Positions 8,947-24,892 of a DNA stretch of 64,000 nt are shown here, piece after piece. The number at the start of each line of letters is the position of its first letter. Position 1 is the stretch's first letter. The DNA is from Rhizobiales bacterium Y(2018). GTDB taxonomy: Bacteria; Pseudomonadota; Alphaproteobacteria; Rhizobiales; Aestuariivirgaceae. A program made the position numbers and the translations under genes. The notes beneath the pieces are model-generated. The model had not been told where the DNA came from, searched no databases, and was given only the letters and a program-made list of their open reading frames with translations. The stretch spans positions 1-64,000 of the forward strand of contig SCPD01000010.1 in assembly GCA_005502925.1 (NCBI GenBank), in the 5' to 3' direction.

Positions 8947-9048
8947 CGTCATCCCGGCGAAAGCCGGGATCCACTGAATAAACAAAACGCGGGCAACACT
9001 GCCCGCGCTTCAAGAATTTAATGGGTCCCGGCTTTCACCGGGATGACG
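8947..9048. repeat. Pair of inverted 26-base REP-like elements
   Basis: An element at 8947-8972 beginning CGTCATCCCGGCGAAAGCC recurs in inverse orientation at 9023-9048, differing at two positions. Each copy is itself a hairpin (CCCGGC / GCCGGG). This CGTCATCCC...CGAAAG... form is a widespread intergenic repeat in alphaproteobacteria. The pair brackets the terminator at 8989-9006 between convergent genes. Confidence 0.75.
8989..9006 (-). terminator. Intrinsic terminator of the hydroxylase gene
   Basis: A perfect 7-base stem, GCGGGCA (8989-8995) and TGCCCGC (9000-9006), has a four-base loop. Read on the minus strand it is followed by a T-rich stretch (TTTTGTTT), as expected for a Rho-independent terminator serving the gene that ends at 9052. 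On the plus strand no T-run follows, so termination of the iolG-like gene here would be less efficient. Confidence 0.65.
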
Positions 9049-11227: not shown

Positions 11228-11301
11228 CAACAGGCTGAATCAAATCAATAATTTAGTGGGATTTGCGTAGATTTCGCATCAACTTTGCGACGCGCCGAGC
11301 C

Positions 11302-11355
11302 TGTCAAATCGCGGACGTCTTCTGTCAAGCCGCTTTCTGCGCCTGGGCCTAAGGT
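11302..11355 (+). promoter_or_regulatory. Tandem operator and -10 element P1 (lyase-kinase operon)
   Basis: Direct repeats TGTCAAA (from 11302) and TGTCAAGC (from 11323) are spaced 21 bases, two helical turns. They form one copy of the pattern TGTCAA-N15-WGTCAAGC. Exactly 19 bases after the end of the pattern (11330) comes TAAGGT at 11350-11355, a -10-like hexamer. The second repeat therefore covers the -35 position, as in AraC-type class II activation. The same arrangement occurs at 14889 and, inverted, at 24892. The leader to the ATG at 11389 would be about 27 bases, with TTTGGAG as ribosome site. Confidence 0.7.
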
Positions 11356-11388
11356 CGGATCAGACAGAATCCCTTTGGAGCCCGCCCG

Positions 11389-12699
11389 ATGAGCAAAGAA
11401 AAAGACGACTTCATTGCCCGGTCGAAGCAGTTCTGGAATCCCGGCAAGACCTCGGATTGGCAGCGCATGGGCGTCGATCTCGTCATCGACCGGCGCGAGG
11501 CCTATTACCTTTGGGATGTCGACGGGCGCCGGCTGATCGACGTTCATCTCAATGGCGGCACCTATTCGCTCGGCCACCGCAATCCGGAAGTGGTCGAGGC
11601 GGTGCGCGAGGGCATGGCCTATTTCGACATCGGCAACCACCATTTCCCCTCGATCATGCGCACCCATGTGGCCGAGATGCTGGAACGACTGACGCCGCCC
11701 GGCCTCAAGCGTACCATCTTCGCCTCGGGTGGCGCAGAGGCGATCGACATCGCGCTCAAGAGCGCCCGCAACGCCACCAAGCGGCGCAAGATCATCTGCA
11801 TCGAGCGCTGCTATCATGGCCATACGGGCCTCGCGGTGCAGGTCGGCGATGACCGCTTCTCCAAGCTCTTCCTGTCCGAGGCGTCGAGCGAGAATGTGGT
11901 CAAGGTGCCGTTCAACGATCTCGAGCGCATGCTGGAAGCCATCGCGGTCGGCGATGCGGCCTGCGTGATCATGGAGACGATCCCGGCGACCTATGGCTTT
12001 CCGATGCCGAAGCCCGGCTATCTCAAGGCCATCAAGGCGGCCTGCGAGAAGGTCGGCACGCTTTATATCGCGGATGAAGTGCAGACCGGCCTGATGCGCA
12101 CCGGCGAGATGTGGGGCATCGAGACCTATGGGGTCAATCCGGACATTCTGGTCACCGGCAAGGGATTGTCGGGCGGCATCTATCCGATCGCCGCGGTGGT
12201 GGTGAGCGAGAAGGCCGGCCAGTGGCTGAGCGAGGACGGCTTCGGCCATATGTCGAGCTTCGGCGGCGCCGAGCTCGGCTGTCTCGCGGCGGCCAAGGTC
12301 CTGGAGATCTGCTCGCGCCCTGAGACGCGCTCGCAGGTCCATTACATCTCGGCCTATCTGGCCAACGGCCTGCGCCAGGTGCAGGCGAACTATCCCGATT
12401 TCTTTACCGGCATCCGCCAGCGCGGCGTCGTCATGGGGCTCGAATTCAACCATGACCAGGGTGCCGTCTATGTGATGAAGCATCTCTATCAGAATGGGGT
12501 CTGGGCGATCTTCTCGACCCTCGACAAGCGGGTGCTGCAGTTCAAGCCGGGCCTGCTGATCGACCGCGAGATGTGCGACGAAATCCTGACCCGTCTCGAC
12601 ACGTCGGTGGCCCTGGCGCAGGCCGAGCTTTTCGGCGGCCGGGCCCGCAGCTATATGACGAGCTCCAAGCCCTCTTATTCGCGGCAGTCGGCGGCCTAG
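11389..12699 (+). CDS. Class III PLP enzyme, probable amino-alcohol O-phosphate phospho-lyase of the BMC pathway
   Basis: A 436-residue protein of the class III aminotransferase fold, with PLP-site segments SLGHRNPEVVEAV, SGGAEAIDIALKSARN, ERCYHGHTG, YIADEVQTGLMRTG and the Schiff-base Lys258 in VTGKGLSGGIYP. In RMM-type microcompartment loci this class III gene accompanies an amino-alcohol kinase. The known chemistry of close relatives is ethanolamine-phosphate or aminopropanol-phosphate phospho-lyase (EC 4.2.3.2 type), releasing aldehyde, phosphate and ammonia. That reaction would feed the aldehyde dehydrogenase encoded at 14949. A true transaminase cannot be excluded. It is first in a two-gene operon with the kinase, three bases apart. 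Confidence 0.8.
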   Translation: MSKEKDDFIARSKQFWNPGKTSDWQRMGVDLVIDRREAYYLWDVDGRRLIDVHLNGGTYSLGHRNPEVVEAVREGMAYFDIGNHHFPSIMRTHVAEMLERLTPPGLKRTIFASGGAEAIDIALKSARNATKRRKIICIERCYHGHTGLAVQVGDDRFSKLFLSEASSENVVKVPFNDLERMLEAIAVGDAACVIMETIPATYGFPMPKPGYLKAIKAACEKVGTLYIADEVQTGLMRTGEMWGIETYGVNPDILVTGKGLSGGIYPIAAVVVSEKAGQWLSEDGFGHMSSFGGAELGCLAAAKVLEICSRPETRSQVHYISAYLANGLRQVQANYPDFFTGIRQRGVVMGLEFNHDQGAVYVMKHLYQNGVWAIFSTLDKRVLQFKPGLLIDREMCDEILTRLDTSVALAQAELFGGRARSYMTSSKPSYSRQSAA

Positions 12700-12702
12700 T
12701 TC

Positions 12703-13701
12703 ATGTCAGCATCGGATACGCTTACCCATCAGCAGAAGCTTGATCAGCTGCAGCGTGTCGCCGATGCGGCGCTCAAGGCCTATGACCTGCCGGCCGAGGC
12801 CCGAGCTACGATGATCAACCTGTCGGAGAACGCGACCTATCGCGTCGACGGGGGGGGAAAGAAATGGGCGCTGCGCGTCCATCGCGAAGGCTACCACTCG
12901 AAGACCGCCATCGGCTCGGAGCTCGCCTGGCTGCAGGCGCTACGCCAGGACGGCGCCGTCACCACGCCGGTGCCGGTCAAAGGCAAAAATGGCGAAATCA
13001 TCCAGACCATCACGCTGCCGGGGCTGGCGCAACGCCACGCGGTGCTGTTCGACTGGGAGGCGGGGGCCGAGCCCTCGGAAGCCGAGTTGCTCGGTCCGTT
13101 CGAGGTATTAGGCGCGGCGACCGCGCGCATGCACAGCCACGCGCGGCAGTGGCGGCGGCCTATAAATTTCGAACGCATGACATGGGATTTCGACGGCGCC
13201 TTCGGCACCGTGCAGCATTGGGGCTCATGGCGCGACGGCATGGGGCTCGATGCCGAGAAGACGAAGCTTTTCCAGCGCACGGTCGATCTCATGGAAAAGC
13301 GGCTCGCGGCGTTCGGCAAGGGCCCCGAGCGTTATGGCCTCATTCATTGCGACATGCGGCTCGCCAATCTGCTGATCGACGGCGAGGAGACCAAGGTCAT
13401 CGATTTCGACGATTGCGGCTTCAGCTGGTATCTCTATGACGGCGCGACAGCGTTATCCTTCATCGAGCATCGTCCCGACGTGCCGGAGCTCATCGCGGCC
13501 TGGGTCAAAGGCTATCGCAGCGTGCTGCCGCTGTCGGCCGAAGACGAGCATGAGATCCCGACCTTCGTGATGTATCGCAGACTCTTGCTCGTCGCCTGGA
13601 TCGGCTCGCATGCCGAGACCGATCTCGCCAAGTCGATGGGCGTTCCTTATACGCGGGATACGGTCGCGCTCTGCGAGGATTATCTGCGGCGATACAGCTA
13701 G
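12703..13701 (+). CDS. APH-fold amino-alcohol kinase (1-amino-2-propanol kinase-like)
   Basis: A 332-residue aminoglycoside phosphotransferase/choline-kinase fold protein. The Brenner-type catalytic loop LIHCDMRLANLL puts His215 and Asp217 in place, and the metal-binding motif VIDFDD has Asp234 (the DFG equivalent). An N-lobe lysine strand, KWALRVHREG, is present. The family phosphorylates small amino alcohols; the kinase of the mycobacterial RMM locus acts on (S)-1-amino-2-propanol, and context suggests the same here. The stop codon shares the palindrome CTAG (13698-13701) with the stop of the convergent regulator gene. Confidence 0.85.
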   Translation: MSASDTLTHQQKLDQLQRVADAALKAYDLPAEARATMINLSENATYRVDGGGKKWALRVHREGYHSKTAIGSELAWLQALRQDGAVTTPVPVKGKNGEIIQTITLPGLAQRHAVLFDWEAGAEPSEAELLGPFEVLGAATARMHSHARQWRRPINFERMTWDFDGAFGTVQHWGSWRDGMGLDAEKTKLFQRTVDLMEKRLAAFGKGPERYGLIHCDMRLANLLIDGEETKVIDFDDCGFSWYLYDGATALSFIEHRPDVPELIAAWVKGYRSVLPLSAEDEHEIPTFVMYRRLLLVAWIGSHAETDLAKSMGVPYTRDTVALCEDYLRRYS

Positions 13702-14729
13702 GCCGTCTGCTGCGCCCGGTAGGATCTGGGCGAGGCGCCGGTCCAGCGGTGGAAGGCGCGCGAGAAGGCCGACAATTCCGAATAGCCGAGCAGGAAAGCG
13801 ATCTCCGAAAAGGGGAGTTCGCGCTGGCGCACATAGATAAGCGCCAGATCGCGGCGCGTTTCCTCGACCAGATCCTTGTAATTGAGATTGTCGCGGGCGA
13901 GCTCGCGCTGGATGGCGGCGGGCGACGCCTTGATCGCCTCCGCCACGTATTCGAGCGCCGGATAGCCCTCGGCGAGGCGGGCGCGGACCGCCGAGCGGAT
14001 CTGGTCCTTCAAGGTCTGGCGCGGCAGCGGCTTGGTGCCGACGCTCATCAGGCACATGCGGGTGATCGACAGGAGCTTCAAGTCTGGTGCCGGCATCGGG
14101 CGCTGGAACAGCTCGCGCCGGAAGACGAGCGCATTGGTCGATTGCGAAAAATAGACGGGCGCGTCGAAGGCGCTTTCATGCTCGCGCCAGGCCTCGGGCT
14201 TGGGGTGCTCGAAATGGACTTCTTCCGGAGCCCAGCTCGCGCCCAGACATTCGCGGATGATGTTGAGGAACATGCCGAGAGAGAGCTCGGCATCCTGGCG
14301 GCGTGCCAGAATGTCGGGCATGCGGATCTGATATTCGAGGCGGGCGAGGCCATTGCCAGCATCGGCAATCGCCATATGAGTCGATTGCTGGTGCAGCCCG
14401 AACAGGCCGACGAAATTTTCGAGGGCGGCGCCGAGGGTGGGTGAGGAGACGGCGGTGTAACCGATGAGGCCCAGGTCGCGCGGTTTGAAGCCGTTGCCGA
14501 ACCACAGGCCGAAATTGGGATTGCCGGTATTGCGGGCCGCTTCCTCGAAGAGCGAGCAGAAGGCCGACAGCTCGAGGCTCAAAGTGGGCTGGCCGACGCA
14601 GGCCGGGTCGATGCCGACCTCGCCACAGACCCGGTCGATATCGCCGCCCCAGCGGGCGACATGATCGGCGATGCCGGTGGCGGCGGATGCGAGGATTCCC
14701 GGATTGGCGCTGTCTTCCCTAGGTGGCAT
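13698..14729 (-). CDS. AraC-family transcriptional regulator of the BMC regulon
   Basis: A 343-residue regulator with an N-terminal arabinose-binding-like domain of the OruR/ArgR type (about residues 20-210: VGIDPACVGQPTLSLEL, LGLIGYTAVSSPTLG) and a C-terminal AraC double HTH (about 240-335: YVAEAIKASPAAIQREL, then FSEIAFLLGYSELSAFSRAF followed by WTGASPRSYR). It lies between the kinase and aldehyde dehydrogenase genes, tail to tail with the former and divergent from the latter, the usual place for a local activator. The 21-base tandem sites at 11302, 14889 and 24892 fit the two-HTH binding mode of this family; that this protein binds them is inferred. Confidence 0.85.
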   Translation of the reverse strand: MPPREDSANPGILASAATGIADHVARWGGDIDRVCGEVGIDPACVGQPTLSLELSAFCSLFEEAARNTGNPNFGLWFGNGFKPRDLGLIGYTAVSSPTLGAALENFVGLFGLHQQSTHMAIADAGNGLARLEYQIRMPDILARRQDAELSLGMFLNIIRECLGASWAPEEVHFEHPKPEAWREHESAFDAPVYFSQSTNALVFRRELFQRPMPAPDLKLLSITRMCLMSVGTKPLPRQTLKDQIRSAVRARLAEGYPALEYVAEAIKASPAAIQRELARDNLNYKDLVEETRRDLALIYVRQRELPFSEIAFLLGYSELSAFSRAFHRWTGASPRSYRAQQTA

Positions 14730-14888
14730 GACGAGCCCCTTGTTTTCTTGGGCGGCAGCGTGACACGGAAAGGCTGCCGAAGCAACTTCACAGGCGCTTG
14801 ATCTACAAAAAGAGGGACATGATAAAGTGAATAACAGCGATTTTCCGCTGTATTTATATTGTCCCTGAATTTAGTGGGCGACAACTGA

Positions 14889-14942
14889 TGTCAAGCTGGC
14901 CTTGTTTGGTGTCAAGCCTGGTTCGCGGTGATGCCGTAATTT
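14889..14942 (+). promoter_or_regulatory. Tandem operator and -10 element P2 (aldehyde dehydrogenase-shell operon)
   Basis: Direct repeats TGTCAAGC at 14889 and TGTCAAGC at 14910 are spaced 21 bases and match TGTCAA-N15-WGTCAAGC. TAATTT at 14937-14942 begins exactly 19 bases after the pattern ends at 14917, the same distance as in P1. Initiation about seven bases downstream would fall at or next to the ATG at 14949, so this mRNA may be leaderless; no good ribosome site precedes that ATG. Confidence 0.7.
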
Positions 14943-14948
14943 GGCGTC

Positions 14949-16523
14949 ATGGCCATTCATCCCCTTCTCGAAGATAGAGGCTTCACCAGCTTTCACGCCA
15001 AGCAGATGGTCGAGAAAGCCCGCTGGGCGGCGGAGGCCTTCTCCGGTCTCGACCGGGTCGCGGTGCTGCGGATCGCCAAGGCGGTCGCCGAAGCGGGTTA
15101 TGCCCAGGCCCAGCGCTATGCCCAATGGGCGGTGGAAGAGACGGGTTTCGGTGTCGCCGAGCACAAGCTGATCAAGAACCAGGCCTGCTCGCGCGGCCTC
15201 TATGAGCTCTACAAGGATCAGGACTTCACCGGCATCAAGCTCGATGCCGAGCGCAAGATCCTGGAGATCCCCCGGCCGGCGGGCGTCGTCTTCGCGCTCA
15301 CCCCCTCGACCAACCCGGTCGCCACCGTCTTCTACAAGATCATGCTGTGTCTCCTGACACGCAATGCCATCATCATCTCACCGCATCCGATGGCCAAGGC
15401 CTGCTGCGCCGATGCCGCCAAGCTCCTCGCCAAGGCGGCCGAAGATGCGGGCGCCCCCGATGGTGTCATTCAAGTCATCGAGGAGCCGTCGCTGCCGATC
15501 GTCGAGACGGTGATGAAGTCGGACCGTATCGACGTGATCCTCGCCACCGGCGGCTCGCCGGTGGTGCGCGCGGCGTACAGTTCGGGCAATCCGGCGATCG
15601 GGGTGGGGCCCGGCAATGTGCCGTCCTATGTCGATGAGACGGCCGATGTGCCGGCGGCCGCGAAAGCGATCACCGACTCGAAGTCTTTCGACAACGGCAT
15701 TCTCTGCACCAACGAAAGCGCCATCATCGCCCATGGCGCCATCGCCGACGCGCTCGCGCAGGAGCTCAAGCGCAATGGCTGCCATATCTGCAGCGAAGAA
15801 GAACGCGACCGGCTCGAGCAGACCTTGTTCCCGAATGGCAAATTCGACATTTCACTGATCGGCAAAGCGGCCGAGCTCATCGCGCAGAAGGCCGGCTTCC
15901 GGGTGCCGCCGCGCACCAAGGTGCTGGTGGCGCCGCTCGCCCGTATCGGCGACGACTATCCGCTGTCGCGTGAGAAACTCTGCCCGGTGATCGGCCTCTA
16001 TGTGGCGGCGACGCGCGATGCGGCAATGATCGCCTGCCGCGCCATGACGCGGCGCTCGGGCGGAGGCCATTCCGCCTCGATCCATGCGCGCGATCCGCAG
16101 ATCATCCTGCGTTATGGCGAAGTGATGAATGTGCTGCGCATCAGCGTGAATGTCGGCAACAGCCTCGGCGCCTCGGGTTTCGAAACGCATCTGGCACCGA
16201 CCATGACCATCGGCACCGGCTATTTCGGCAGGAGCTCGGTGGGCGAAAATGTCGAGCCCCGGCACCTGGTGCAGTGGGTGAAGATGGCCTGGAACAAGGA
16301 TGATCGAATCCAGATGCCATCCTTCTCCGCAACGGATCGGGTCGAGAAACCCAGAATCGGCGCCCCTCCGCGCGGCGAGATCGACTATGACTTCGGCAAT
16401 CATCCGGATGGCACGGCGAGCCCGCCGGCGCCCGCAAGGCAGACGGCGACCCAGGATGCCGATATCAGGGCGGAGATCCGCCGCATCATCCTCGAAGAAT
16501 TGAAGGAGCTGACGGCGCGCTGA
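14949..16523 (+). CDS. BMC CoA-acylating aldehyde dehydrogenase with C-terminal encapsulation peptide
   Basis: A 524-residue protein of the PduP/EutE-like acylating aldehyde dehydrogenase family. Catalytic Cys253 lies in [30 protein letters not shown] and [28 protein letters not shown] mark the nucleotide region. Such enzymes convert propanal plus CoA and NAD+ to propionyl-CoA. After a Pro/Ala-rich linker (about residues 485-502) the last 20 residues form an amphipathic helix ([19 protein letters not shown]), the classic encapsulation peptide that targets cargo to a shell. Its stop overlaps the start of the first BMC-T gene by one base (TGATG). The catalytic core is intact. Confidence 0.9.
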
Positions 16524-17134
16524 TGGCCAAGCTTCGCTCCTATATCTTCATCGATCAGCTGCAGCCCGGCACCATGTGCTATCTCGGCACTTTCTGCCGG
16601 GGCTTCCTGCCACGCGCCAATATGGCGGCGATCGTCATCGAAGTGGCGCCCGGGCTCGATATCGAGCCGTTGACCGACATCGCGGTGAAGACCGTCGACG
16701 TGAAGCCCGGCATTTTGGTAGTCGAGCGGCAGTTCGGCTATCTCGAATTCCATTCGCATTCGACGGCCGCGGTGCGTGCGGCGGGCGACGCGATTCTGGC
16801 CGAGCTCGGCGCGAGCGAGAAGGATGCGCTCAAGCCCGAGATCCTCGCTTCCAAGATCGTCAAACGCGTCGACAATTATCATGCGCTGCTGATCAACCGG
16901 AATAAGTCGGGCTCGATGATCCTTCCGAGCGAATCGCTCTTCGTGCTCGAAATGCAGCCGGCTGCCTATGCCATTCTCGCCGCCAATGAGGCGGAGAAGG
17001 CGGCCAATATCAAAGTGGTCGACTACCGGATGATGGGCGCCACGGGCCGCGTCTATCTCTCGGGCGAAGAAAGCAACATACGGGCCGCCGCCCACGCGGC
17101 CGAACAGGCCCTCGAAATGAGGAAGGCGGCATGA
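16523..17134 (+). CDS. BMC-T trimeric shell protein (tandem BMC domains), copy 1
   Basis: A 203-residue protein with two BMC domains: residues about 1-95 (LRSYIFIDQLQPGTMCYLGTF, then MAAIVIEVAPGLDIEPLTDIA) and about 100-200 (NRNKSGSMILPSESLFVLEMQPA, then GATGRVYLSGEESNIRAA). The permuted order and opening ELRxYxxLxxLQ-like strand match the BMC-T class of RMM loci, which form pseudohexameric trimers that may carry a gated central pore. It is coupled to the aldehyde dehydrogenase upstream and overlaps the next gene by four bases. It is about 45% alike by eye to the second copy at 18201. Confidence 0.9.
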   Translation: MAKLRSYIFIDQLQPGTMCYLGTFCRGFLPRANMAAIVIEVAPGLDIEPLTDIAVKTVDVKPGILVVERQFGYLEFHSHSTAAVRAAGDAILAELGASEKDALKPEILASKIVKRVDNYHALLINRNKSGSMILPSESLFVLEMQPAAYAILAANEAEKAANIKVVDYRMMGATGRVYLSGEESNIRAAAHAAEQALEMRKAA

Positions 17135-17604
17135 GCGGCATTTCCTCGAACGAGATCCGGCAATTGGTACGCGATGCCTTGCGTGAATTGCTGCCGGCCG
17201 CGAAAATGAAGCCTACGACCGGGGGCACGCTTCTCAACCGTTTGCGTGCCGCTCTCAGTGAGCCGAAGTCCGCGCCGGTCGAGGTCATGGTCGATGGCGC
17301 CGGCGATCTCAACGCCTTCGCCCGCGATCTCCTGCAGGCGCAGGAGGACGTCAAGGTCGGCATCCTTTCGGGGAAGATCCAGTTCAGTCTGGCGGCGCGC
17401 AATGGTGTCACATCCAGCGCTGCGGCTCCTGCCGCGACGCGCAGCTCGCATCAGATTTCCAAGGGTGTGGTGACCGAGGTCATGGTCACCGAGATCGGCA
17501 AGTCACATGACCGTCTTATTGTCGGCAAAGGCGTCGTGGTGACGCCGCTGGCGCGCGATCGTGCGCGCGAGGTCAAGCTTGAAATCGTGAGGGAACACTC
17601 ATGA
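17131..17604 (+). CDS. Small BMC-associated protein with encapsulation-like N-terminal helix
   Basis: A 157-residue protein not assigned to a family with confidence. Residues 5-20 (SSNEIRQLVRDALREL) form an amphipathic helix of the same style as the encapsulation peptide at the C-terminus of the aldehyde dehydrogenase. A middle part (about 45-95) is alpha/beta-like (VEVMVDGAGDLNAFARDLLQAQEDVKVGIL). After an Ala/Ser-rich linker the C-terminal part reads GVVTEVMVTEIG...LIVGKGVVVTPLARDRARE, a motif seen in several BMC-locus accessory proteins. It overlaps both neighbours by four bases, so it is made in step with the shell. A cargo or scaffold role is inferred. Confidence 0.65.
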   Translation: MSGISSNEIRQLVRDALRELLPAAKMKPTTGGTLLNRLRAALSEPKSAPVEVMVDGAGDLNAFARDLLQAQEDVKVGILSGKIQFSLAARNGVTSSAAAPAATRSSHQISKGVVTEVMVTEIGKSHDRLIVGKGVVVTPLARDRAREVKLEIVREHS

Positions 17605-17891
17605 AGACAGGGATAGTCGTCGGAAAAGTTTGGGCCACCAAGCGGCTCGATCAATTACCGGGTGGCGCGCTGCTCGAGATCGCCATCGAAGAGGAAGACG
17701 AGATGGATGAGCGCATGGTGGCGTTCGATCCGCTGGGCGCCGGCATCGGCGAAAGGGTACTGATCACTCAAGGGTCGGTCGCCAAGGCGTGGTTCAAGGA
17801 CAGCAACAATGTCGTCGATGCGCTGGTGATCGGCATTCTCGACGAGCAGACGGCGCCGGCCAAGCCCGGCAAGAAGAGCAAAGTGGATTAG
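17601..17891 (+). CDS. BMC-P pentameric vertex protein (EutN/CcmL family)
   Basis: A 96-residue protein with the EutN/CcmL signature: N-terminal strand TGIVVGKVWATKRLDQLPGGALLEI, central LGAGIGERVLITQGSVAKAWF, and C-terminal NNVVDALVIGILDE. These pentamers cap the vertices of microcompartments. A short lysine-rich tail (KPGKKSKVD) is extra. Translation is coupled to the upstream 157-residue protein through an ATGA overlap. Confidence 0.93.
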   Translation: MKTGIVVGKVWATKRLDQLPGGALLEIAIEEEDEMDERMVAFDPLGAGIGERVLITQGSVAKAWFKDSNNVVDALVIGILDEQTAPAKPGKKSKVD

Positions 17892-17915
17892 TCAGGTTGC
17901 GAAAAGGAGGACATC

Positions 17916-18191
17916 ATGTCTAACGCAATTGGTTTTGTCGAAACGCGCGGCTTCGTGGCGGCTTTCGCCGCGGGCGACGCGATGGTGAAAGCGGCGAATG
18001 TGACGATCATCGGCCGCGAGCAGGTCGGCGCCGGTTTGGTGTCGGTCGTGGTGCAGGGCGATGTCGGCGCCGTCAAGGCGGCGACGGAAGCGGGCGCCGA
18101 AGCTGCGCGCAATGTCGGCGAAGTGGTCTCGGTGCATGTCATTCCGCGCCCGCATCCGGATGTGCTCAAGCATTTCGGCACCGCGAAGTAA
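17916..18191 (+). CDS. BMC-H hexameric shell protein
   Basis: A 91-residue canonical single-domain shell protein ([21 protein letters not shown], then [32 protein letters not shown] and ending [11 protein letters not shown]). These hexamers tile the facets. The gene has by far the best ribosome site in the operon, AAGGAGG at 17904-17910 five bases before the ATG, which suits the most abundant shell component. The intergenic gap (24 bases) also breaks the chain of overlapping starts seen upstream. Confidence 0.95.
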
Positions 18192-18200
18192 CAGCCAATC

Positions 18201-18830
18201 GTGGCCGAACTCCGCGTCTATCTGAAGCTCGAAACCCTGAGGCGGCAGTTCGCCGCCTATATGGGATCGCCGACCCGCGCGCGGGGCTATGTGCCGCTGG
18301 AAGGCATGCATTCGCTGATCATCGAGATCGCACCAGCGCTCGCCATCCATCATGTGAGCGATATTGCGCTGAAAACGGTGCCCGAGGTCGAGCCCGGCAT
18401 TCTCTATACCGAGCGGCAGTTCGGCATTCTCGAACTGCATTCCTTCGATATGGAGCATGTCGACCGGGCGGGTGCTGCAGTGCTGAAGGCAATCGGCCAG
18501 AAGGCCGAAGACCAGCTCAAGCCGCAGTTGCTCTTCGCCGAGATTGTGCCCGAGGTGACGGACAGCCATGCCGTCATCCTCAATCGCAACCGCGAGGCGT
18601 CGATGATCCTGCCGGGCGAATCGCTCCTCCTCGTCGAGATGATGCCGGCGTTGTTCGCGGCATACGCGGCAAACGAAGCTGAGAGGATCGCGCCCGGCGC
18701 CACGCTCGTCGATTGCCAGATGATCGGCGCCTCGGGGCGGTTGTTCATGTCGGGTGATAAAGCCGAGCTGGAAAAAGCGCGCGATCATATCGTCAAGATG
18801 CTGAAGGGCATGAGCGGGCGGAAATCCTGA
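18201..18830 (+). CDS. BMC-T trimeric shell protein, copy 2
   Basis: A 209-residue tandem-BMC protein starting at GTG 18201, nine bases after the BMC-H stop. It has the same permuted architecture as the first copy (LRVYLKLETLRRQFAAYMGSP; VEPGILYTERQFGILELHSF; NRNREASMILPGESLLLVEMMPA; IGASGRLFMSGDKAELEKA). RMM loci typically encode two different BMC-T proteins. It is the last shell gene; 105 bases follow before the RNase gene. Confidence 0.9.
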   Translation: MAELRVYLKLETLRRQFAAYMGSPTRARGYVPLEGMHSLIIEIAPALAIHHVSDIALKTVPEVEPGILYTERQFGILELHSFDMEHVDRAGAAVLKAIGQKAEDQLKPQLLFAEIVPEVTDSHAVILNRNREASMILPGESLLLVEMMPALFAAYAANEAERIAPGATLVDCQMIGASGRLFMSGDKAELEKARDHIVKMLKGMSGRKS

Positions 18831-18935
18831 CGCTGTCCGTGAAGTTGACGCCTTGTAATCCGCTAGCCATAGGAAGCGGCCGCTGAACCATGCTATCAAG
18901 CATCCGTCCTTCATTCGCGAGGAGTTTGTTGGCAG

Positions 18936-19931
18936 ATGCGGCTCGTTTCCTTCTCTAAAATTTTCGTTGTTCTCGCTGGGGCGCTAGGGCTCGCGGCCCC
19001 TTTTGCGGTCGCTGACGTGCCGCTCGACGGCTCGTTCGTCGCCGGCCAGAACTGCAGCGCCTTCCAGTCGATCAAGAAGCAATCGAACCCGGTACCGCTC
19101 AACGCCGGCACCTCCTATCAGATCGTCGCGGGGAACAAGGAGCCGGCCAGCCATTATCTCATTCTCGTGCCGGGTGCTTCACCGGAACGGCGCTGGGCGC
19201 CGGTCGATTGCGGCACCCGCAGTGGCGGGAACACCTCCGCGCAACAGCCCGGCAAGCAGGCGCCGGCCGGCAAGCAGCCGACGCAGAATGTCCTGGCGGT
19301 CAGCTGGCAGCCGGCCTTCTGCGAGACGAAGCCCAACAAGGTCGAATGCCGGACGCAAACGGCGGACCGGTTCGATGCCAGCAATTTCACTCTGCATGGT
19401 TTGTGGCCGCAGCCGCGGCGGATGGCTTATTGCAATGTCGGCAAAAGCGATATCGCCAATGACAAGGATGGCCGCTGGGATCAGCTACCGGAAGTCTCGC
19501 TCGAGCCGCCGACGCGCACTGAGCTCGACAAGGTGATGCCGGGCACGCAGTCGCAGCTCGACCGGCATGAATGGACCAAACACGGCACCTGCTACTCGCA
19601 GACGCCGGAAGAGTATTTCAGCGAATCGCTGGCCCTGATGCGGGCGCTCAACAGCTCCGCCGTGCGCGAGCTGTTCGCCAGCCGCGTCGGCCAGCAATTG
19701 ACCTTCGATGAGATCCGCAAGGCCTTCGACCAGAGCTTTGGCGAGGGCGCGGGCCTCAGGGTGCGCATGCAATGCGCGCGCAACAACGGCAAGCTGATCA
19801 TCTCCGAGCTCACCATCGGCCTCAGTGGCGACATCACGCCCGAAACGTCGCTCGCAAATCTCATGGCCGCCGCGACGCCGACCAAGACCGAATGTCCAAG
19901 CGGCCTCGTCGATGCGGTGGGACAGCAGTAG
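18936..19931 (+). CDS. Secreted RNase T2-family endoribonuclease
   Basis: A 331-residue protein with a Sec signal peptide (cleavage near VADV, residues 26-28). The RNase T2 catalytic motifs are intact: CAS I FTLHGLWPQ with His154, and CAS II HEWTKHGTC with His211, Glu212, Lys215 and His216. Several cysteines fit periplasmic disulfides. The first 110 mature residues form an extra N-terminal region with a Gly/Gln/Pro linker (about 95-117). It cleaves single-stranded RNA in the periplasm or outside the cell. It sits between the last shell gene and the SDR of the transporter operon, with no obvious tie to the microcompartment; it may supply nucleosides or phosphate or be a passenger. Confidence 0.9.
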   Translation: MRLVSFSKIFVVLAGALGLAAPFAVADVPLDGSFVAGQNCSAFQSIKKQSNPVPLNAGTSYQIVAGNKEPASHYLILVPGASPERRWAPVDCGTRSGGNTSAQQPGKQAPAGKQPTQNVLAVSWQPAFCETKPNKVECRTQTADRFDASNFTLHGLWPQPRRMAYCNVGKSDIANDKDGRWDQLPEVSLEPPTRTELDKVMPGTQSQLDRHEWTKHGTCYSQTPEEYFSESLALMRALNSSAVRELFASRVGQQLTFDEIRKAFDQSFGEGAGLRVRMQCARNNGKLIISELTIGLSGDITPETSLANLMAAATPTKTECPSGLVDAVGQQ

Positions 19932-19941
19932 TTCAATAAAA

Positions 19942-19967
19942 ATGGCCGCCTCGCAAGTGGCGGCCAT
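19942..19967. terminator. Terminator between RNase T2 and the reverse transporter-SDR operon
   Basis: A perfect 9-base stem, ATGGCCGCC (19942-19950) and GGCGGCCAT (19959-19967), has an 8-base loop. Read on the minus strand it is followed by TTTTTATTG, a good U-run, so it should end the SDR operon. It may also slow transcripts from the RNase gene. Confidence 0.7.
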
Positions 19968-19989
19968 AGCCGATTGAGTGTTCTGCCGC

Positions 19990-20769
19990 TCAGGCCTGGT
20001 TGATGGCTTCGATCGATTCGGGGATGATCTGGCCGCCATCGACGATGATCGTCTGGCCGGTCACATAGGCCGCTTCCTTAGTGGCGAAATAAAGCGCCGC
20101 ATAACCGATATCCTCGACGCGGCCGAGGCGCTTCAGCGGGATCGAGGCGGCCATGGTCTTTTCGTAATCGGGGCCGAGATCGGCGAGGCCTTCGGTCGCG
20201 ATATTCCCCGGCAGCACGGCATTCACGGTGATGCCGAATTTGGCGAGCTCCATGCAGGCGGTGCGCATGAAGCCGAGCTGGCCGGCTTTGGTGGCGCCGT
20301 AATGCGTCCAGCCGGGGAAGCCGGTCACCGGTCCGGTGATGGAGGAGGTGATGATGATGCGGCCCTGGCCGCTCTTCTTGAGCGCCGGCAGGCAGGCCTT
20401 CACCGAGAGGAAGGTGCCCTTCAGATTGGTGTCGACGGTGATGTCCCAGGTCTCATCCGTCATCTCCTCGATCTTCACTTGCGGGAAGATGCCGGCATTG
20501 GCGCAGAGAATATCGAGACCGCCATGCGTCTTGACCGCGAAGTCGGCTGCTGCCTGCATGCTCTTGTAGTCGGTGACGTCAGCGGCGAAGGCGGCGACGG
20601 TGCCGCCCGCTTTGCTGAGCTCCGCCGCGGCTTCCTTGGCCACGTTCTCATGGCGCGCGGTGATCAGCACCTTGCAGCCGGCCTCGGCGAAAACGCGCGC
20701 AATGCCCTTGCCGATGCCCTTGCTGCCGCCGGTGACCAGGACGGATTTGTTCTTCAGCGATGAAAACAT
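19990..20769 (-). CDS. SDR oxidoreductase, probable 1-amino-2-propanol (aminoacetone) dehydrogenase
   Basis: A 259-residue classical SDR (FabG-like in sequence) with TGGSKGIG at residues 13-20, NAG at 91-93, and catalytic Ser142/Ser143, Tyr157 and Lys161. In mycobacterial RMM loci a FabG-like SDR acts as S-1-amino-2-propanol dehydrogenase, which fits this gene's place at the end of the importer operon opposite the shell genes. It would interconvert aminoacetone and amino-propanol. Its C-terminus (IPESIEAINQA) shows no encapsulation peptide, so it may act outside the shell. Generic ketoreductase activity is the alternative. Confidence 0.75.
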   Translation of the reverse strand: MFSSLKNKSVLVTGGSKGIGKGIARVFAEAGCKVLITARHENVAKEAAAELSKAGGTVAAFAADVTDYKSMQAAADFAVKTHGGLDILCANAGIFPQVKIEEMTDETWDITVDTNLKGTFLSVKACLPALKKSGQGRIIITSSITGPVTGFPGWTHYGATKAGQLGFMRTACMELAKFGITVNAVLPGNIATEGLADLGPDYEKTMAASIPLKRLGRVEDIGYAALYFATKEAAYVTGQTIIVDGGQIIPESIEAINQA

Positions 20770-20793
20770 GGAAACATTCCCTCTCTCGTTATT

Positions 20794-21585
20794 TCATGAT
20801 TGTGCGCGCCGGCGCAGCGTGACGAGCCAGTAGCCGCCGAGCAGCAGCAAGGCCGCGCCGAAGGTCGACACCGTGCCGAGCACCGGCACGCCCGGCGTGT
20901 AGCCCGCCACCATCTTGGCATAGAGATATTTGGGGATGGTCGCGTCGGCGCCGGTGGTGAACAGCGACAGAGGGAAATTGCCCCAGGATAGAAGGAAGGC
21001 GAAGAAAGCCCCCGAGACGATGCCCGGCAGGAGCACGGGCAGCGTCACTTCGCGGAAGACCTGCCAGCGCGAGGCGCCGAGATCGAAGGCCGCCTCTTCG
21101 AGCGCCGGATCGAAACTATAGACCTGGATCGAGATGACGAGCGTCACCACCGGGATGATCCAGACGAGATGGGCGAAGATGGCGGTCATCCACGAAGTCT
21201 GGATGCCGACGGCGTTGAACCACAGGAGCAGAGCGAGGCCGAGAACCGATTGCGGAAAGAAGATCGGCAAAAGCACGATCTTCTGGAAGACGGTGCGGCC
21301 TTTCCAGTTATAGCGAGCGAAAGCGAGCGCGCCGAAGAAGGCGATGACGACGGCGATGACCATGACGCAGAAGGCGATGGTGATCGAATTGGCGAAAAGC
21401 TGGCGGATCTCGAGCGACTCGAAAGTCTTGCGCCACCAGTCGAAGCCCCATTTCTGGATCGGGAACAGGAAATAACGGCTCGCAGTGAGCGAGGCGAGCA
21501 GGATGCACAGTGCCGGCAGATAGAGGAAGACAAGGACGGCGAGCGTCCAGGCCCAGATCAGCGCGCGGCGGCCACGGTCAGTCAT
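20794..21585 (-). CDS. ABC transporter permease, PotC-like
   Basis: A 263-residue inner-membrane permease of the spermidine/putrescine class, with about six helices and the cytoplasmic EAA loop LEEAAFDLGASRWQVFREVTLP near residue 180. It is the second permease of the importer; its start follows the partner permease stop by three bases. Polyamine-type permeases also carry other small amines and opines, so the substrate here is inferred from linkage to the amino-alcohol pathway. Confidence 0.88.
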   Translation of the reverse strand: MTDRGRRALIWAWTLAVLVFLYLPALCILLASLTASRYFLFPIQKWGFDWWRKTFESLEIRQLFANSITIAFCVMVIAVVIAFFGALAFARYNWKGRTVFQKIVLLPIFFPQSVLGLALLLWFNAVGIQTSWMTAIFAHLVWIIPVVTLVISIQVYSFDPALEEAAFDLGASRWQVFREVTLPVLLPGIVSGAFFAFLLSWGNFPLSLFTTGADATIPKYLYAKMVAGYTPGVPVLGTVSTFGAALLLLGGYWLVTLRRRAQS

Positions 21586-21588
21586 GGC

Positions 21589-22455
21589 TCACCTCTTTCC
21601 CAAGATGGCGTCGAGATCGAAACGCTTGAGCACCAGCATGACCAGCGTGCCGACGACGATCATCAGAAGCACGGCGAGTGCGGCGCCCAAGGGCCAGTTC
21701 TGCGCATAGGTGAAGGCGATCTCGATATCATGGGTGATCGGGATGATGGTCTGGCCGCCCAGCACCTTGGCTTCGGCAATGGCGCCGACGGCGAGCACGA
21801 AGGTCAGGAGCAGGCCGATCATGATGCCGGGCATGGAGAGCGGCAGCTCGACCTCGCGGAAAACCTGCCAGCGCGAGGCGCCGAGATCGCGCGCCGCTTC
21901 ACGCGTTTCGTTCGGCACCATGGAGACGCCGAGCGTCATCGGGAACAGCATGAAGGGCAGATAGACATAGACCATGCCAAGCAGCACCACGCCCGGCGTG
22001 AACAGGATGCTCTCCGGCTCGATGCCGAACCAGGATTTGAGCGTACCAAGCAACACGCCGTTCTTGATGAGGAACAGGATCCAGCCATAGAGGCGGACAT
22101 TCTCGGAGACGAAGAGCGGAATGGTGAAGAGCAGCGTCAGGATCGGCGACCAGCGGCCGAAGAGCCGCGCCATGCCGTAGGCGATCGGATAGCAGATGAG
22201 CGCCAGGAGGGCGACGGTGAGCGCGGCGAACAGCATAGACCAGCCGAAGGAGATATAGCTGTTGCTGGTGAATATGTCGGCATAGTTGTCGAGCGTCGGC
22301 GCATGGGTGAGGCCGAAGGAGCGCGGTGGCATGAAGCTGTAGGCGATCACCGCGAGGAGGGGGGCGGCGAAGCCGATGATCATGAAGAGTATCAGCGGCA
22401 AGGCGTTGCGGGCACCTTGCGACAGGCCTTTGCCGGTTTCGTGAGGTGCCGCCAT
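21589..22455 (-). CDS. ABC transporter permease, PotB-like
   Basis: A 288-residue permease with six to seven helices and the EAA loop ETREAARDLGASRWQVFREVELP at about residue 195, nearly the same as in the partner permease. Its start (ATG 22455) overlaps the end of the ATPase gene by one base. It forms the translocation pore together with the PotC-like protein. Confidence 0.88.
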   Translation of the reverse strand: MAAPHETGKGLSQGARNALPLILFMIIGFAAPLLAVIAYSFMPPRSFGLTHAPTLDNYADIFTSNSYISFGWSMLFAALTVALLALICYPIAYGMARLFGRWSPILTLLFTIPLFVSENVRLYGWILFLIKNGVLLGTLKSWFGIEPESILFTPGVVLLGMVYVYLPFMLFPMTLGVSMVPNETREAARDLGASRWQVFREVELPLSMPGIMIGLLLTFVLAVGAIAEAKVLGGQTIIPITHDIEIAFTYAQNWPLGAALAVLLMIVVGTLVMLVLKRFDLDAILGKR

Positions 22456-23522
22456 CAGCCGGTCACCAGAATGGAATCTTTCGCGTCCCAGCCAATGAGG
22501 ACGGTCTGGTCGCGGCGGAGCGTGGAGGAATGCTGGCGCAGCTTCTCGACGATGAAGACATTCTCGCCGACGCGCACCTGATACTGGATGCGCGAGCCCA
22601 GCGCATATTCGTTGTAGAGCTTGCCCTCGAGAACGTTCTCGGCCTCTTTCGCCTCGGTAACGAAGCGGACGAATTCGGGCCGGATGACGAGGTGGCCTTT
22701 GCTGAAGGCTTCAGGGATGGCGGCGACGGTGAAAGTCTTGTCGAACGTGTCGGCGGTGATGGTGCGGCTGCCGTTCATGCTGACCGGAATGACATTCACA
22801 TCACCCATGAATTCCGAGACGAACTTGTCCTTGGGCGCCGAATAGATCTCGTTCGGGGTTCCGACCTGAACCAGGTTGCCGGCGCACATGACGCCGATAC
22901 GGTCCGACATCACCATCGCCTCTTCGAGCGAATGAGTGATGTAGACGAAGGTCTTGCCGGTCTCGCGGTGGATGTCCTTGAGCTCCCTCTCGAGAGTCTT
23001 GCGCAATTTGTAGTCGATGGCCGAGAGCGGCTCGTCGAAGAACAGGATTTTGGGGTCGAAAGCGAGGGCGCGGGCCAAGGCGACGCGCTGGCGCTCGCCG
23101 CCCGAGCAGCGCAGCACCGACTTGCCGTAATAATTCTGCGGCAGGCGCAACTGATCGAGAAGCGCCAAAGCTCGGGCTTTACGCTGGGCCGGATCGACGC
23201 CTTTGATCTTGAGTGGAAACTCGATGTTCTCGCCGACAGTGCGGTGGGGGAAAAGGGCGAGCGACTGGAACACCATGCAGGTCGGCCGCTTGTTGGCGGG
23301 GAGATCGTTGATACGCGTGCCGCTCAGGATGATGTCGCCGCTCGAAGCCTGCTCCATGCCGGCGAGCATGCGGATAAGCGTCGTTTTGCCCGAGCCCGAC
23401 GGGCCGACAATGGTGAAGAACTCGCCCTCGGCAATGTCGAGATCGATACCGTCCACGGCATTGAACGTACCGAAGGACTTGGTGAGGGACTTGAGCTGCA
23501 GAATGGGCGGGCGCTTTGACAT
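22455..23522 (-). CDS. ABC transporter ATP-binding protein, PotA-like
   Basis: A 355-residue ATPase with Walker A GPSGSGKTT (about residues 38-46), signature CSGGERQRVALARAL, Walker B ILFFDEPLSAID, H-loop YITHS and a C-terminal TOBE region (from about 240). The signature reads CSGGE rather than the usual LSGGQ, which is common among polyamine-type ATPases. It follows the binding-protein gene after an 84-base gap containing a stable hairpin. Confidence 0.9.
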   Translation of the reverse strand: MSKRPPILQLKSLTKSFGTFNAVDGIDLDIAEGEFFTIVGPSGSGKTTLIRMLAGMEQASSGDIILSGTRINDLPANKRPTCMVFQSLALFPHRTVGENIEFPLKIKGVDPAQRKARALALLDQLRLPQNYYGKSVLRCSGGERQRVALARALAFDPKILFFDEPLSAIDYKLRKTLERELKDIHRETGKTFVYITHSLEEAMVMSDRIGVMCAGNLVQVGTPNEIYSAPKDKFVSEFMGDVNVIPVSMNGSRTITADTFDKTFTVAAIPEAFSKGHLVIRPEFVRFVTEAKEAENVLEGKLYNEYALGSRIQYQVRVGENVFIVEKLRQHSSTLRRDQTVLIGWDAKDSILVTG

Positions 23523-23550
23523 GCAATCCTTGGGAACTTTAAGCAGGTTT

Positions 23551-23579
23551 GGCCCCTCCGGCGTCGAGCGGGAGGGGCC
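23551..23579 (-). terminator. Intercistronic hairpin between binding protein and ATPase genes
   Basis: Stem GGCCCCTCC (23551-23559) and GGAGGGGCC (23571-23579) is perfect over 9 bases with an 11-base loop. It lies in the 84-base gap after the binding-protein gene. No T-run follows on the minus strand, so it is more likely an mRNA stabiliser or attenuator that raises binding protein over transporter subunits than a full terminator. Confidence 0.6.
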
Positions 23580-23606
23580 TTATCGATAGGTGCGAGACGG
23601 CCCGGA

Positions 23607-24770
23607 TTACCCGGCCGACGCTTCCTTCTTCGCTGCGGTCATGATGTCGAGCAGCTTGTCATAGTCGGGAACGATGTCGTACTCGACCGAGCGCGCCACT
23701 TCTTCCTCGAGCGAGTCCCATTGAATGGCGTCGAGCTCTTCCTTGGTGAAGAGATCGAAACATTCCTTGTTGCCCATCTGGGCGACGGGATTGAACGTGC
23801 CTTCGGCGAAAGCGACGGTGTGGGCGACCTTCGGGTCCTGCACATATTTCAGGAACTCGACGGCGAGCGGTGACAATTCCGGATTGTTCACCGGCGAGGT
23901 GATCTCGATCCAGACGATGCCGCCCTTGCCGCCTTCCATCGGGCCCGAATTGGGCGTGATGCCGCGGATATTGGCGGCGCCGTCGGCACGCGCCGGCGAG
24001 GCCGAATAGGTGCCGCCGGTCAGATGGAAGTCGATCTCACCCGACACCAGCGACTGGTTCATCGTGGCGATGTCGCCGACGACCTTGGCGCCCTTGAAGA
24101 CGCGCTTCGCCGTCTCGGTGAATTTGGCGACCTCGTCGTCATTATGCACCTTGAAGGGATCGAAGCCGGCGATGCAGCAGATGTTGAAGACGTTCCAGTC
24201 GTCCGATTCGAGGACGCCGTATTTCTTGTCATTGGCCGGATCGTTCCACAGATTCCAGCCCTGATCCTCGGCGGCCTTGCGGCTGACCTTGTCGGTGTTG
24301 ACGACGAAGCAATAAGGTCCGAAGCGCTGCGCCATGCCGATGAGCTGCTCGCCCTTCTCGTCCATCGCCCACTTATAGGGCGCCTTGAAGGCCGGCATCA
24401 TCTTGTCGAAATAGGGCTCGAAGGTAGCGCGGTCGAGCGGCTTGATAAGGCCCTCGGGCGCCATGATCTTGCGGGCCCAGGGATTGTTGACATTGATGAG
24501 GTCCCAGATCTTCGTTTCACCGGCGCGCAGCCGGTTGACCATGGTCGGGTCGTTGGTGAGGGACTCGGCTTTGACCGTGGCGCCCTTATCCTGGCGGAAA
24601 GGGTCGAGCACCTGGGCCGAGTTGTAGCCTTCCCAGCACAGGATATTCAGCTCTTTCTCGCGCGCGGCGTGTGCCGGAGTGGTAGTGAATTTAGCGCCGG
24701 CTGCCACCGCTGCCGCAAAAGCGGTCGAGCGTTGCATGAAATTCCGGCGAGACAGGGGTGTTTTCAGCAT
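23607..24770 (-). CDS. Periplasmic amine-binding protein, PotD-like
   Basis: A 387-residue binding protein with a twin-arginine-like leader (SRRNFMQRSTAFAAAVAAGAKFTTTPAHA, cleavage about residue 34). The body has the PotD/PotF fold (LNILCWEGYNSAQVLDPF at the start of the mature part, PLDRATFEPYFDKM, and the late SPLAVEFLKYVQDP). The leader suggests export in the folded state by Tat. It is the first gene of the reverse operon binding protein-ATPase-permease-permease-SDR and has its own tandem operator upstream. Ligand is inferred to be an amino alcohol or aminoacetone. Confidence 0.85.
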   Translation of the reverse strand: MLKTPLSRRNFMQRSTAFAAAVAAGAKFTTTPAHAAREKELNILCWEGYNSAQVLDPFRQDKGATVKAESLTNDPTMVNRLRAGETKIWDLINVNNPWARKIMAPEGLIKPLDRATFEPYFDKMMPAFKAPYKWAMDEKGEQLIGMAQRFGPYCFVVNTDKVSRKAAEDQGWNLWNDPANDKKYGVLESDDWNVFNICCIAGFDPFKVHNDDEVAKFTETAKRVFKGAKVVGDIATMNQSLVSGEIDFHLTGGTYSASPARADGAANIRGITPNSGPMEGGKGGIVWIEITSPVNNPELSPLAVEFLKYVQDPKVAHTVAFAEGTFNPVAQMGNKECFDLFTKEELDAIQWDSLEEEVARSVEYDIVPDYDKLLDIMTAAKKEASAG

Positions 24771-24838
24771 GCGACTTCCTCCATTGTTCTGTTACCCATC
24801 ACTTAGCGTGGGTTTGGCTTTAGCGTTTCCCATCAGAT

Positions 24839-24892
24839 AGCCTAGGGCAGGTCCCTGGCAATCGCTTGACTTTCGAGCGTCCCGATTTGACA
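24839..24892 (-). promoter_or_regulatory. Tandem operator and -10 element P3 (transporter-SDR operon)
   Basis: Read on the minus strand from 24892: TGTCAAATCG..., then AGTCAAGC ending at 24864. This matches TGTCAA-N15-WGTCAAGC with the same 21-base repeat spacing as P1 and P2, and the first ten bases equal those of P1. TAGGCT (24844 down to 24839) begins exactly 19 bases after the pattern. The binding-protein ATG at 24770 would have a leader of about 60 bases. Confidence 0.7.

Follow-up and report, generated by a model that had tools for sequence, protein, structure and literature searches.

We analysed a 64,000-nt stretch of DNA from Rhizobiales bacterium Y(2018) (contig SCPD01000010.1, positions 1 to 64,000; hereafter the window), which carries a bacterial microcompartment (BMC) cluster, and asked how its operons are controlled. 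The sequence comparisons show a predicted operator made of two direct TGTCAA half-sites with a 21-bp period, whose proximal copy lies over the -35 place and whose presence tracks a regulator gene. We assign a probability of about 0.88 to the reading that this element is the operator of the pathway-specific AraC/XylS-family regulator encoded at 13698-14729, which would activate three operons in the class-II manner: the lyase-kinase operon, the aldehyde dehydrogenase (AldDH)-shell operon, and an operon for a PotABCD-type importer and a short-chain dehydrogenase/reductase (SDR). The comparative sequence evidence gives good support to a real and conserved regulon that is pathway-specific and has a tandem operator of textbook AraC/XylS type, and the shell, its enzymes and the importer are very probably switched on together.

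A preliminary description of this DNA had reported three intergenic matches to TGTCAA-N15-WGTCAAGC, each followed by a TAnnnT hexamer, and its account of the window was borne out. The sites at 11302-11330 (+), 14889-14917 (+) and 24892-24864 (-) match with 0 mismatches and keep a 21-bp repeat-to-repeat period, the hexamers TAAGGT, TAATTT and TAGGCT begin exactly 19 nt after them, and the operators precede the three operons as assigned. The promoters were also said to have no -35 otherwise, and the best agreement with TTGACA was indeed 2/6 in all three (spacers 15-19). The full pattern TGTCAA-N15-WGTCAAGC-N19-TAnnnT has exactly 3 matches in the window, and the proposed scan of the whole genome (7.1 Mb, 37 contigs) brought no further exact matches, since all 3 exact copies of the 29-mer are those of the window. 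Three more 29-mer matches at one mismatch lie elsewhere; on one or other strand, all of them fall within stop-to-stop frames of 185 codons or more, and in none does a TAnnnT follow at 15-20 nt. When the -10 is added to the pattern, the genome holds 3 exact matches, 0 at one mismatch, 3 at two mismatches and 24 at three (a total of 30 up to three mismatches vs 16 for a reversed-pattern control), which clearly separates the exact matches from the near ones. Judged from the window alone, the motif is post hoc: at up to three mismatches the window gave 6 matches vs 4.8 expected, and 34 of 100 shuffles reached 6. These window counts are what favours a chance resemblance, picked post hoc from the comparison of three promoters; the operator stands above chance because it is conserved in relatives.

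Relatives were collected with the BMC-T shell protein, which matched 28 of 397 genomes of the order (E <= 1e-10) and 11 of 385 genomes of the class (E <= 1e-40), the window's own genome included in both counts. The comparison set comprised the 30 genomes (own included) with a close shell form, at a BMC-T identity of at least 62%. Loci on long enough contigs had the same gene set in many arrangements, usually with PotDABC-SDR beside the AraC, kinase, lyase, AldDH and shell genes; kinase, lyase, SDR and Pot matches were not found in the stretch taken from G750, G580 and G673. Results showed that TGTCAA-N15-DGTCAAGY has 44 exact sites in the 30 genomes vs 7 for the reversed pattern. For 41 of these 44, a cluster gene begins fewer than 250 nt downstream; it is a kinase, lyase, AldDH or PotD gene or, in 5 cases, one for a diol dehydratase. 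Throughout the 397 genomes of the order there are 82 exact sites, 34 in 20 shell-type genomes and 48 in the other 377, and the reversed control (rows counted by hand) gave 5 and 62, respectively. Because the 48 sites are about level with the 62 control sites, the pattern outside cluster-bearing genomes is background. The comparison with related strains, suggested earlier as a check, found the sites conserved and their geometry kept, while the spacer letters are mostly free. The tandem operator recurs in this gene cluster across Alphaproteobacteria, and all three sites are present in the cultured relative Taklimakanibacter lacteus (L038). The genome scan and this comparison had both been named beforehand as ways to refute the operator reading, and neither refuted it.

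Repeat spacing and -10 phase were then assessed, the spacing in loci fetched by the shell protein only, never by the site. Across the 369 kb of 21 loci from AraC-bearing genomes, the pair TGTCAA-Nx-GTCAAG was counted for every x from 0 to 100: x = 16 gave 28 occurrences and no other value gave more than one, so that a single one of 101 repeat spacings is enriched. The 8 AraC-less loci (138 kb) yielded a single occurrence, at a spacing other than x = 16. Among 200 shuffled hexamers at x = 16, 197 gave 0-2 occurrences and three gave 28, because the true hexamer was drawn three times. The hexamer TAnnnT, absent from the search pattern used to collect the sites, begins 18-20 nt after 41 of the 53 non-window cluster sites (31 at 19, 9 at 20 and 1 at 18; 40 of 53 at 19-20 nt), three of which, in locus L037, are not independent because the cluster proteins there are 92-100% identical to the window's. 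At the same distance it was seen after 1 of 22 outside sites (a sample of 3 off-cluster sites, 16 of the 48 and the 3 one-mismatch sites of the own genome), and 1.8% is predicted from the local background. Three findings speak against chance: the independent recurrence in relatives, confined to one spacing; a -10 at fixed distance although outside the search pattern; and the separation of exact from near matches within the own genome. The 44 vs 7 sites, the one-spacing enrichment and the fixed -10 distance refute it, and we leave it practically no probability.

By gene order, the predicted operator goes with the start of the transcription unit. Across AraC-bearing loci, with the window counted, it precedes AldDH at 5/5 unit heads and 0/16 internal positions, that is, behind another cluster gene; the kinase (APH) gene at 12/12 heads and 1/10 internal positions; the lyase (AT3) gene at 9/13 and 2/9; and PotD, at up to one mismatch and in loci partly selected by the site itself, at 15/16 and 1/1. 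No operator was found there before SDR (20 cases), the first BMC-T (21), PotB (17) or PotC (20). All genes scored together gave 41/102 heads vs 4/181 internal genes, a head class that is too wide because unrecognised upstream genes make internal genes look like heads. In AraC-less loci, the operator was found at 0/18 heads and 0/35 internal genes. The preliminary description had tied the importer and the SDR to the microcompartment by the operator; that link stands, but the operator is not the only tie, the conserved neighbourhood being another. Two extensions of the regulon were rejected: the isochorismatase-like gene has the operator in 0/14 cases, and a site pointing at araC, as autoregulation would need, is present in 0/25 araC upstream regions.

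Little is conserved between the half-sites or in the spacer, apart from position 7 (R in 48/56) and position 8 (G in 0/56). A further conserved element within 24 nt upstream was rejected, only a C at position 0, just before the first repeat, standing out (33/56), as was a second box inside the half-site, of which the first repeat has a weak trace at positions 17-19 and the second repeat none. Inverted and everted TGTCAA pairs were scanned to gap 40, with places counted on both strands. Inverted pairs had 2 counts each at gaps 0 and 3, and everted pairs 2 at gap 6 and 4 at gap 40, the last being, by their coordinates, the back-to-back operators of L055 and L056, from one genus. In such arrangements two operators stand on opposite strands, 40-41 nt apart, between divergent kinase and lyase genes. 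Separately, exact operator-like sites with T-rich middles (TGTCAAGTTTTTT...) occur at L092 3001-3029 (+), L100 2001-2029 (-) and L101 2001-2029 (-), in genomes G004 (two) and G055 of genus g10, for neither of which a BMC-T match is listed; they possibly belong to another element or regulon.

To identify the probable reader, the 30 genomes were searched with the window AraC protein (match threshold E <= 1e-30). The 22 genomes with a match are exactly the 22 with an exact operator, and the 8 without a match have none; the best match is 42-100% identical in 21 of the 22. This co-occurrence strengthens the earlier nomination of the AraC protein as candidate reader. A different DNA-binding protein common to these genomes might instead read the operator, the AraC gene being a bystander. 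The many regulators in each genome would allow this, the predicted AraC-operator pairing is drawn from sequence, and one genome (G114) has a site with no detected AraC. Nevertheless, we consider it very unlikely, since exact-site presence or absence matches the AraC relative in 30/30 genomes, AraC-family regulators with 21-bp direct repeats are known, and other regulators appear in AraC-less genomes: a DeoR-type gene beside the lyase gene in three of the eight (G228, G384 and G120) and a DJ-1/PfpI-AraC gene after the shell genes in two (G750 and G673). AraC-less loci also differ from AraC-bearing ones in their gene content or arrangement. The same kind of shell cluster without a PF12625 AraC was observed in L049, L050 and L053 (DeoR-type) and in L070 and L072 (DJ-1/PfpI-AraC), an apparent replacement of the regulator together with absence of the operator. 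The segment LGYSELSA of helix-turn-helix 2 (HTH2) is invariant in 26/26 operator-associated regulators (LGYSELSAF in 25), some of them only 42% identical to the window's; this counts for little, because AraC proteins at large are often alike there.

Several observations weigh against AraC control of this operator as proposed. No TAnnnT lies 18-20 nt after 12 of the 53 non-window sites, 3 of the 44 exact sites are away from cluster genes (G092:C5, G307:C139 and G061:C26), and a few of the 48 sites outside shell-type genomes might serve other regulons. A site at up to one mismatch is missing from 4/13 AT3 heads and 1/16 PotD heads. The regulator of G696 is only 30% identical to the window's, and G114 (71% complete), a 31st genome with distant shell genes that was dropped from the 30, has a site before its PotD gene and no AraC match. 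Fisher values calculated by hand for 22 genomes with both vs 8 with neither (1/C(30,8) = 1.7e-7) and per genus for 16 with vs 5 without (1/C(21,5) = 4.9e-5) are both weakened because the genomes share descent and the counts are not independent.

The features fit an AraC/XylS tandem operator: an AraC-type HTH in the regulator, direct half-sites at a period of about 21 bp, and a proximal half-site over the -35 place. Class-II activators usually have this layout, a tandem site that overlaps the -35 in fixed phase with the -10. On binding the inducer, the regulator would occupy the two repeats with two subunits arranged head-to-tail, and the promoter-proximal subunit would replace the missing -35 contact, so that the lyase-kinase, AldDH-shell and PotDABC-SDR operons switch on jointly. 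The candidate inducer is probably a compound of the amino-alcohol pathway. Alternatively, AraC could act as a repressor that is bound over the -35 region, blocks the polymerase and is released by inducer. The second repeat, lying over the -35 place, is compatible with such occlusion, yet this is unlikely, because promoters without a -35 (best 2/6) are expected to need help and the layout is that of an activator. It is extremely unlikely that the repeats are -35 boxes of reverse-strand promoters, even though TGTCAA is the exact reverse complement of the sigma-70 consensus TTGACA and operator 2 lies upstream of the divergent araC. Such promoters would not explain why there are two boxes with a 21-bp period and a -10 beyond them on the opposite side; in the window a divergent gene is present at operator 2 only, and the conserved -10s are on the operon side (no systematic scan of reverse-strand -10s was made).

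Features of the window are listed in Table 1. The AT3 and APH-fold products we take, from what is known of RMM-type pathways, to be a phospho-lyase and a kinase acting on 1-amino-2-propanol, with AldDH inside the shell. The nearest NCBIfam models of AldDH are acetaldehyde dehydrogenases, with scores below their cut-offs. A ribonuclease T2-family gene (PF00445; 18936-19931, +) follows the shell operon and, among the loci compared, occurs only in the close relatives L037 and L038/L043. An 11-mer, AATTTAGTGGG, is found at 11250-11260 (+), 52 nt before operator 1, and at 14868-14878 (+), 21 nt before operator 2; its one-letter variant AATTTAATGGG lies at 9015 (+), before an open reading frame at 9043. 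The 11-mer was set aside as a second element, having 4 exact genome copies and none found in the G247 locus.

Table 1 Predicted operators, -10-like hexamers and genes of the window, with back-to-back operator pairs of related loci
Feature	Position	Strand	Remarks
Tandem operator 1 (TGTCAA-N15-TGTCAAGC)	11302..11330	+	Before lyase-kinase operon; kept before AT3/APH operons of relatives
-10-like hexamer TAAGGT	11350..11355	+	19 nt after operator 1
AT3, class-III aminotransferase-fold pyridoxal phosphate (PLP) enzyme, putative amino-alcohol-phosphate phospho-lyase	11389..12699	+	PF00202, E 9e-73
APH-fold kinase, putative amino-alcohol kinase	12703..13701	+	PF01636; role inferred
AraC-family regulator, predicted reader of operator	13698..14729	-	Arabinose_bd PF12625, E 1e-51; HTH_18 PF12833, E 2e-13
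Tandem operator 2	14889..14917	+	Between divergent araC and AldDH-shell operon
-10-like hexamer TAATTT	14937..14942	+	19 nt after operator 2
AldDH, CoA-acylating-type aldehyde dehydrogenase	14949..16523	+	PF00171
Shell genes, whole stretch	16523..18830	+	PF00936/PF03319
BMC-T (first)	16523-17134	+	Shell gene
157-aa protein	17131-17604	+	Among shell genes
BMC-P	17601-17891	+	PF03319
BMC-H	17916-18191	+	PF00936
BMC-T (second)	18201-18830	+	46% identity to first BMC-T; no Pfam match
Importer-SDR operon, whole	19990..24770	-	Cluster conserved in relatives
SDR	19990-20769	-	Last in importer-SDR operon
PotC	20794-21585	-	Importer-SDR operon
PotB	21589-22455	-	Importer-SDR operon
PotA	22455-23522	-	Importer-SDR operon
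PotD	23607-24770	-	Importer-SDR operon
-10-like hexamer TAGGCT	24839..24844	-	19 nt after operator 3
Tandem operator 3 (TGTCAA-N15-AGTCAAGC)	24864..24892	-	Before importer-SDR operon
Back-to-back operator pair	L052 5693-5791		
Back-to-back operator pair	L055 4646-4743		
Back-to-back operator pair	L056 5000-5097		

In five genomes (G657, G433, G733 and G560 of one genus, and G092) the operator extends to a diol dehydratase. Each has two AraC paralogs, which within a genome share 57-65% identity; the second is divergent from a fused large-plus-medium-subunit diol dehydratase gene, and the operator lies between the two genes. The enzyme was identified by PF02286 and PF02288 in G657 and by 83-93% identity in the other four, and TAnnnT lies 19-20 nt after the operator in 4/5, not in G092. 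Diol dehydratase genes were found in 23/30 genomes. The copy in the window's own genome (G000:C14:12692-14935) is on another contig and 65% identical to that of G657, and contig C14 has no exact operator. Whether the diol dehydratase of RMM2 compartments is in use was left undecided in a 2014 taxonomy (PMC4207490, in part). The shared operator family argues for joint use of the enzyme in the five two-AraC genomes, although their second regulator might act apart. We tentatively suggest, as a possibility we hold to be doubtful, two-input control of the organelle in these genomes, where the paralog next to the kinase, lyase and shell genes and the paralog next to the B12-type diol dehydratase operon share one operator family. 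If true, the same shell, AldDH and importer would be induced by either of two propanal-forming substrates, an amino-alcohol or a 1,2-diol, and regulation would settle the question of bifunctionality for RMM2-type compartments. The window's genome would then represent the single-input form, its diol dehydratase unlinked and without an exact operator.

What is new here, on solid ground, is an operator-defined regulon for a microcompartment cluster; the AraC/XylS tandem-operator kind is already familiar. It provides a testable regulon from sequence alone for a microcompartment type with unsettled substrate and cofactor recycling. The operator hints at the set of genes switched together with the organelle, among them the importer and the SDR, and it is absent from the isochorismatase-like gene and, in the own genome, from the diol dehydratase. 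It also gives an inducible handle in the search for the true substrate. The same kind of shell cluster is accompanied by at least three regulator types (PF12625 AraC, DeoR and DJ-1-AraC).

AraC-family regulation of microcompartment loci is known from EutR (eut) and the pdu-cob regulon. PocR is likewise an AraC-family regulator of a microcompartment locus, pdu, in the portion of PMC4207490 consulted; it has a PocR sensor domain where PF12625 is present here, and serves a different pathway. For the actinobacterial loci, the same portion of this 2014 taxonomy describes amino-2-propanol, aminoacetone, an SDR, a phosphotransferase and a GntR regulator. The RMM1/RMM2 (amino-2-propanol) loci of Actinobacteria resemble the present one in AldDH, phosphotransferase, SDR and aminotransferase, and RMM2 also in its diol dehydratase (PMC4207490, in part); in the window, AldDH, phosphotransferase, SDR and a PLP enzyme stand with the shell genes. 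Where those loci, in the text consulted, combine a GntR regulator with an amino acid permease, the window has an AraC regulator and a PotABCD-type importer, and some relatives have DeoR or DJ-1-AraC. We found no description of the operator, or of an AraC-controlled alphaproteobacterial locus of this type, in the titles and abstracts that our searches of open-licence PMC papers listed, and the word AraC occurs 0 times in a 2021 catalogue (PMC8217296).

The regulator resembles QhpR in scoring 311.8 against NCBIfam NF049968 (cut-off 250). Its identification as QhpR was rejected: the amine-dehydrogenase gamma family PF08992, the gamma-subunit family being the only one searched, was not found in the own genome, and it occurs in 1 of the 22 genomes (G126), where the QHNDH gamma gene lies 3.4 kb from a different AraC. 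That protein is 29% identical to the window's and differs in the LGYSELSA segment. The label is too wide, because both proteins score above the cut-off. As to the operator, that of SphR (P. aeruginosa) is similar in its AraC-family direct repeats starting with TG, its three-operon core regulon, and a marked -10 with a -35 far from consensus, and differs in its half-site (TGNCCSNNRNNSNCC), its repeats 6-8 bp apart and its inducer, sphingosine (PMC3900636, in part). The ARG box of ArgR, an AraC/XylS regulator of P. aeruginosa and P. alloputida, consists of tandem 16-bp half-sites TGTCGCN6GNAA with 5 bp between them, and shares with the present element a 21-bp period and half-sites starting with TGTC (PMC10963909, in part). 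It differs in that the half-site here, TGTCAA, is not followed by a conserved AA, that the spacing is rigid here and variable in P. alloputida (PMC10963909, in part), and that ArgR governs arginine metabolism and the present regulon a microcompartment cluster. Among the systems consulted, the ArgR ARG box is the nearest documented parallel, followed by SphR.

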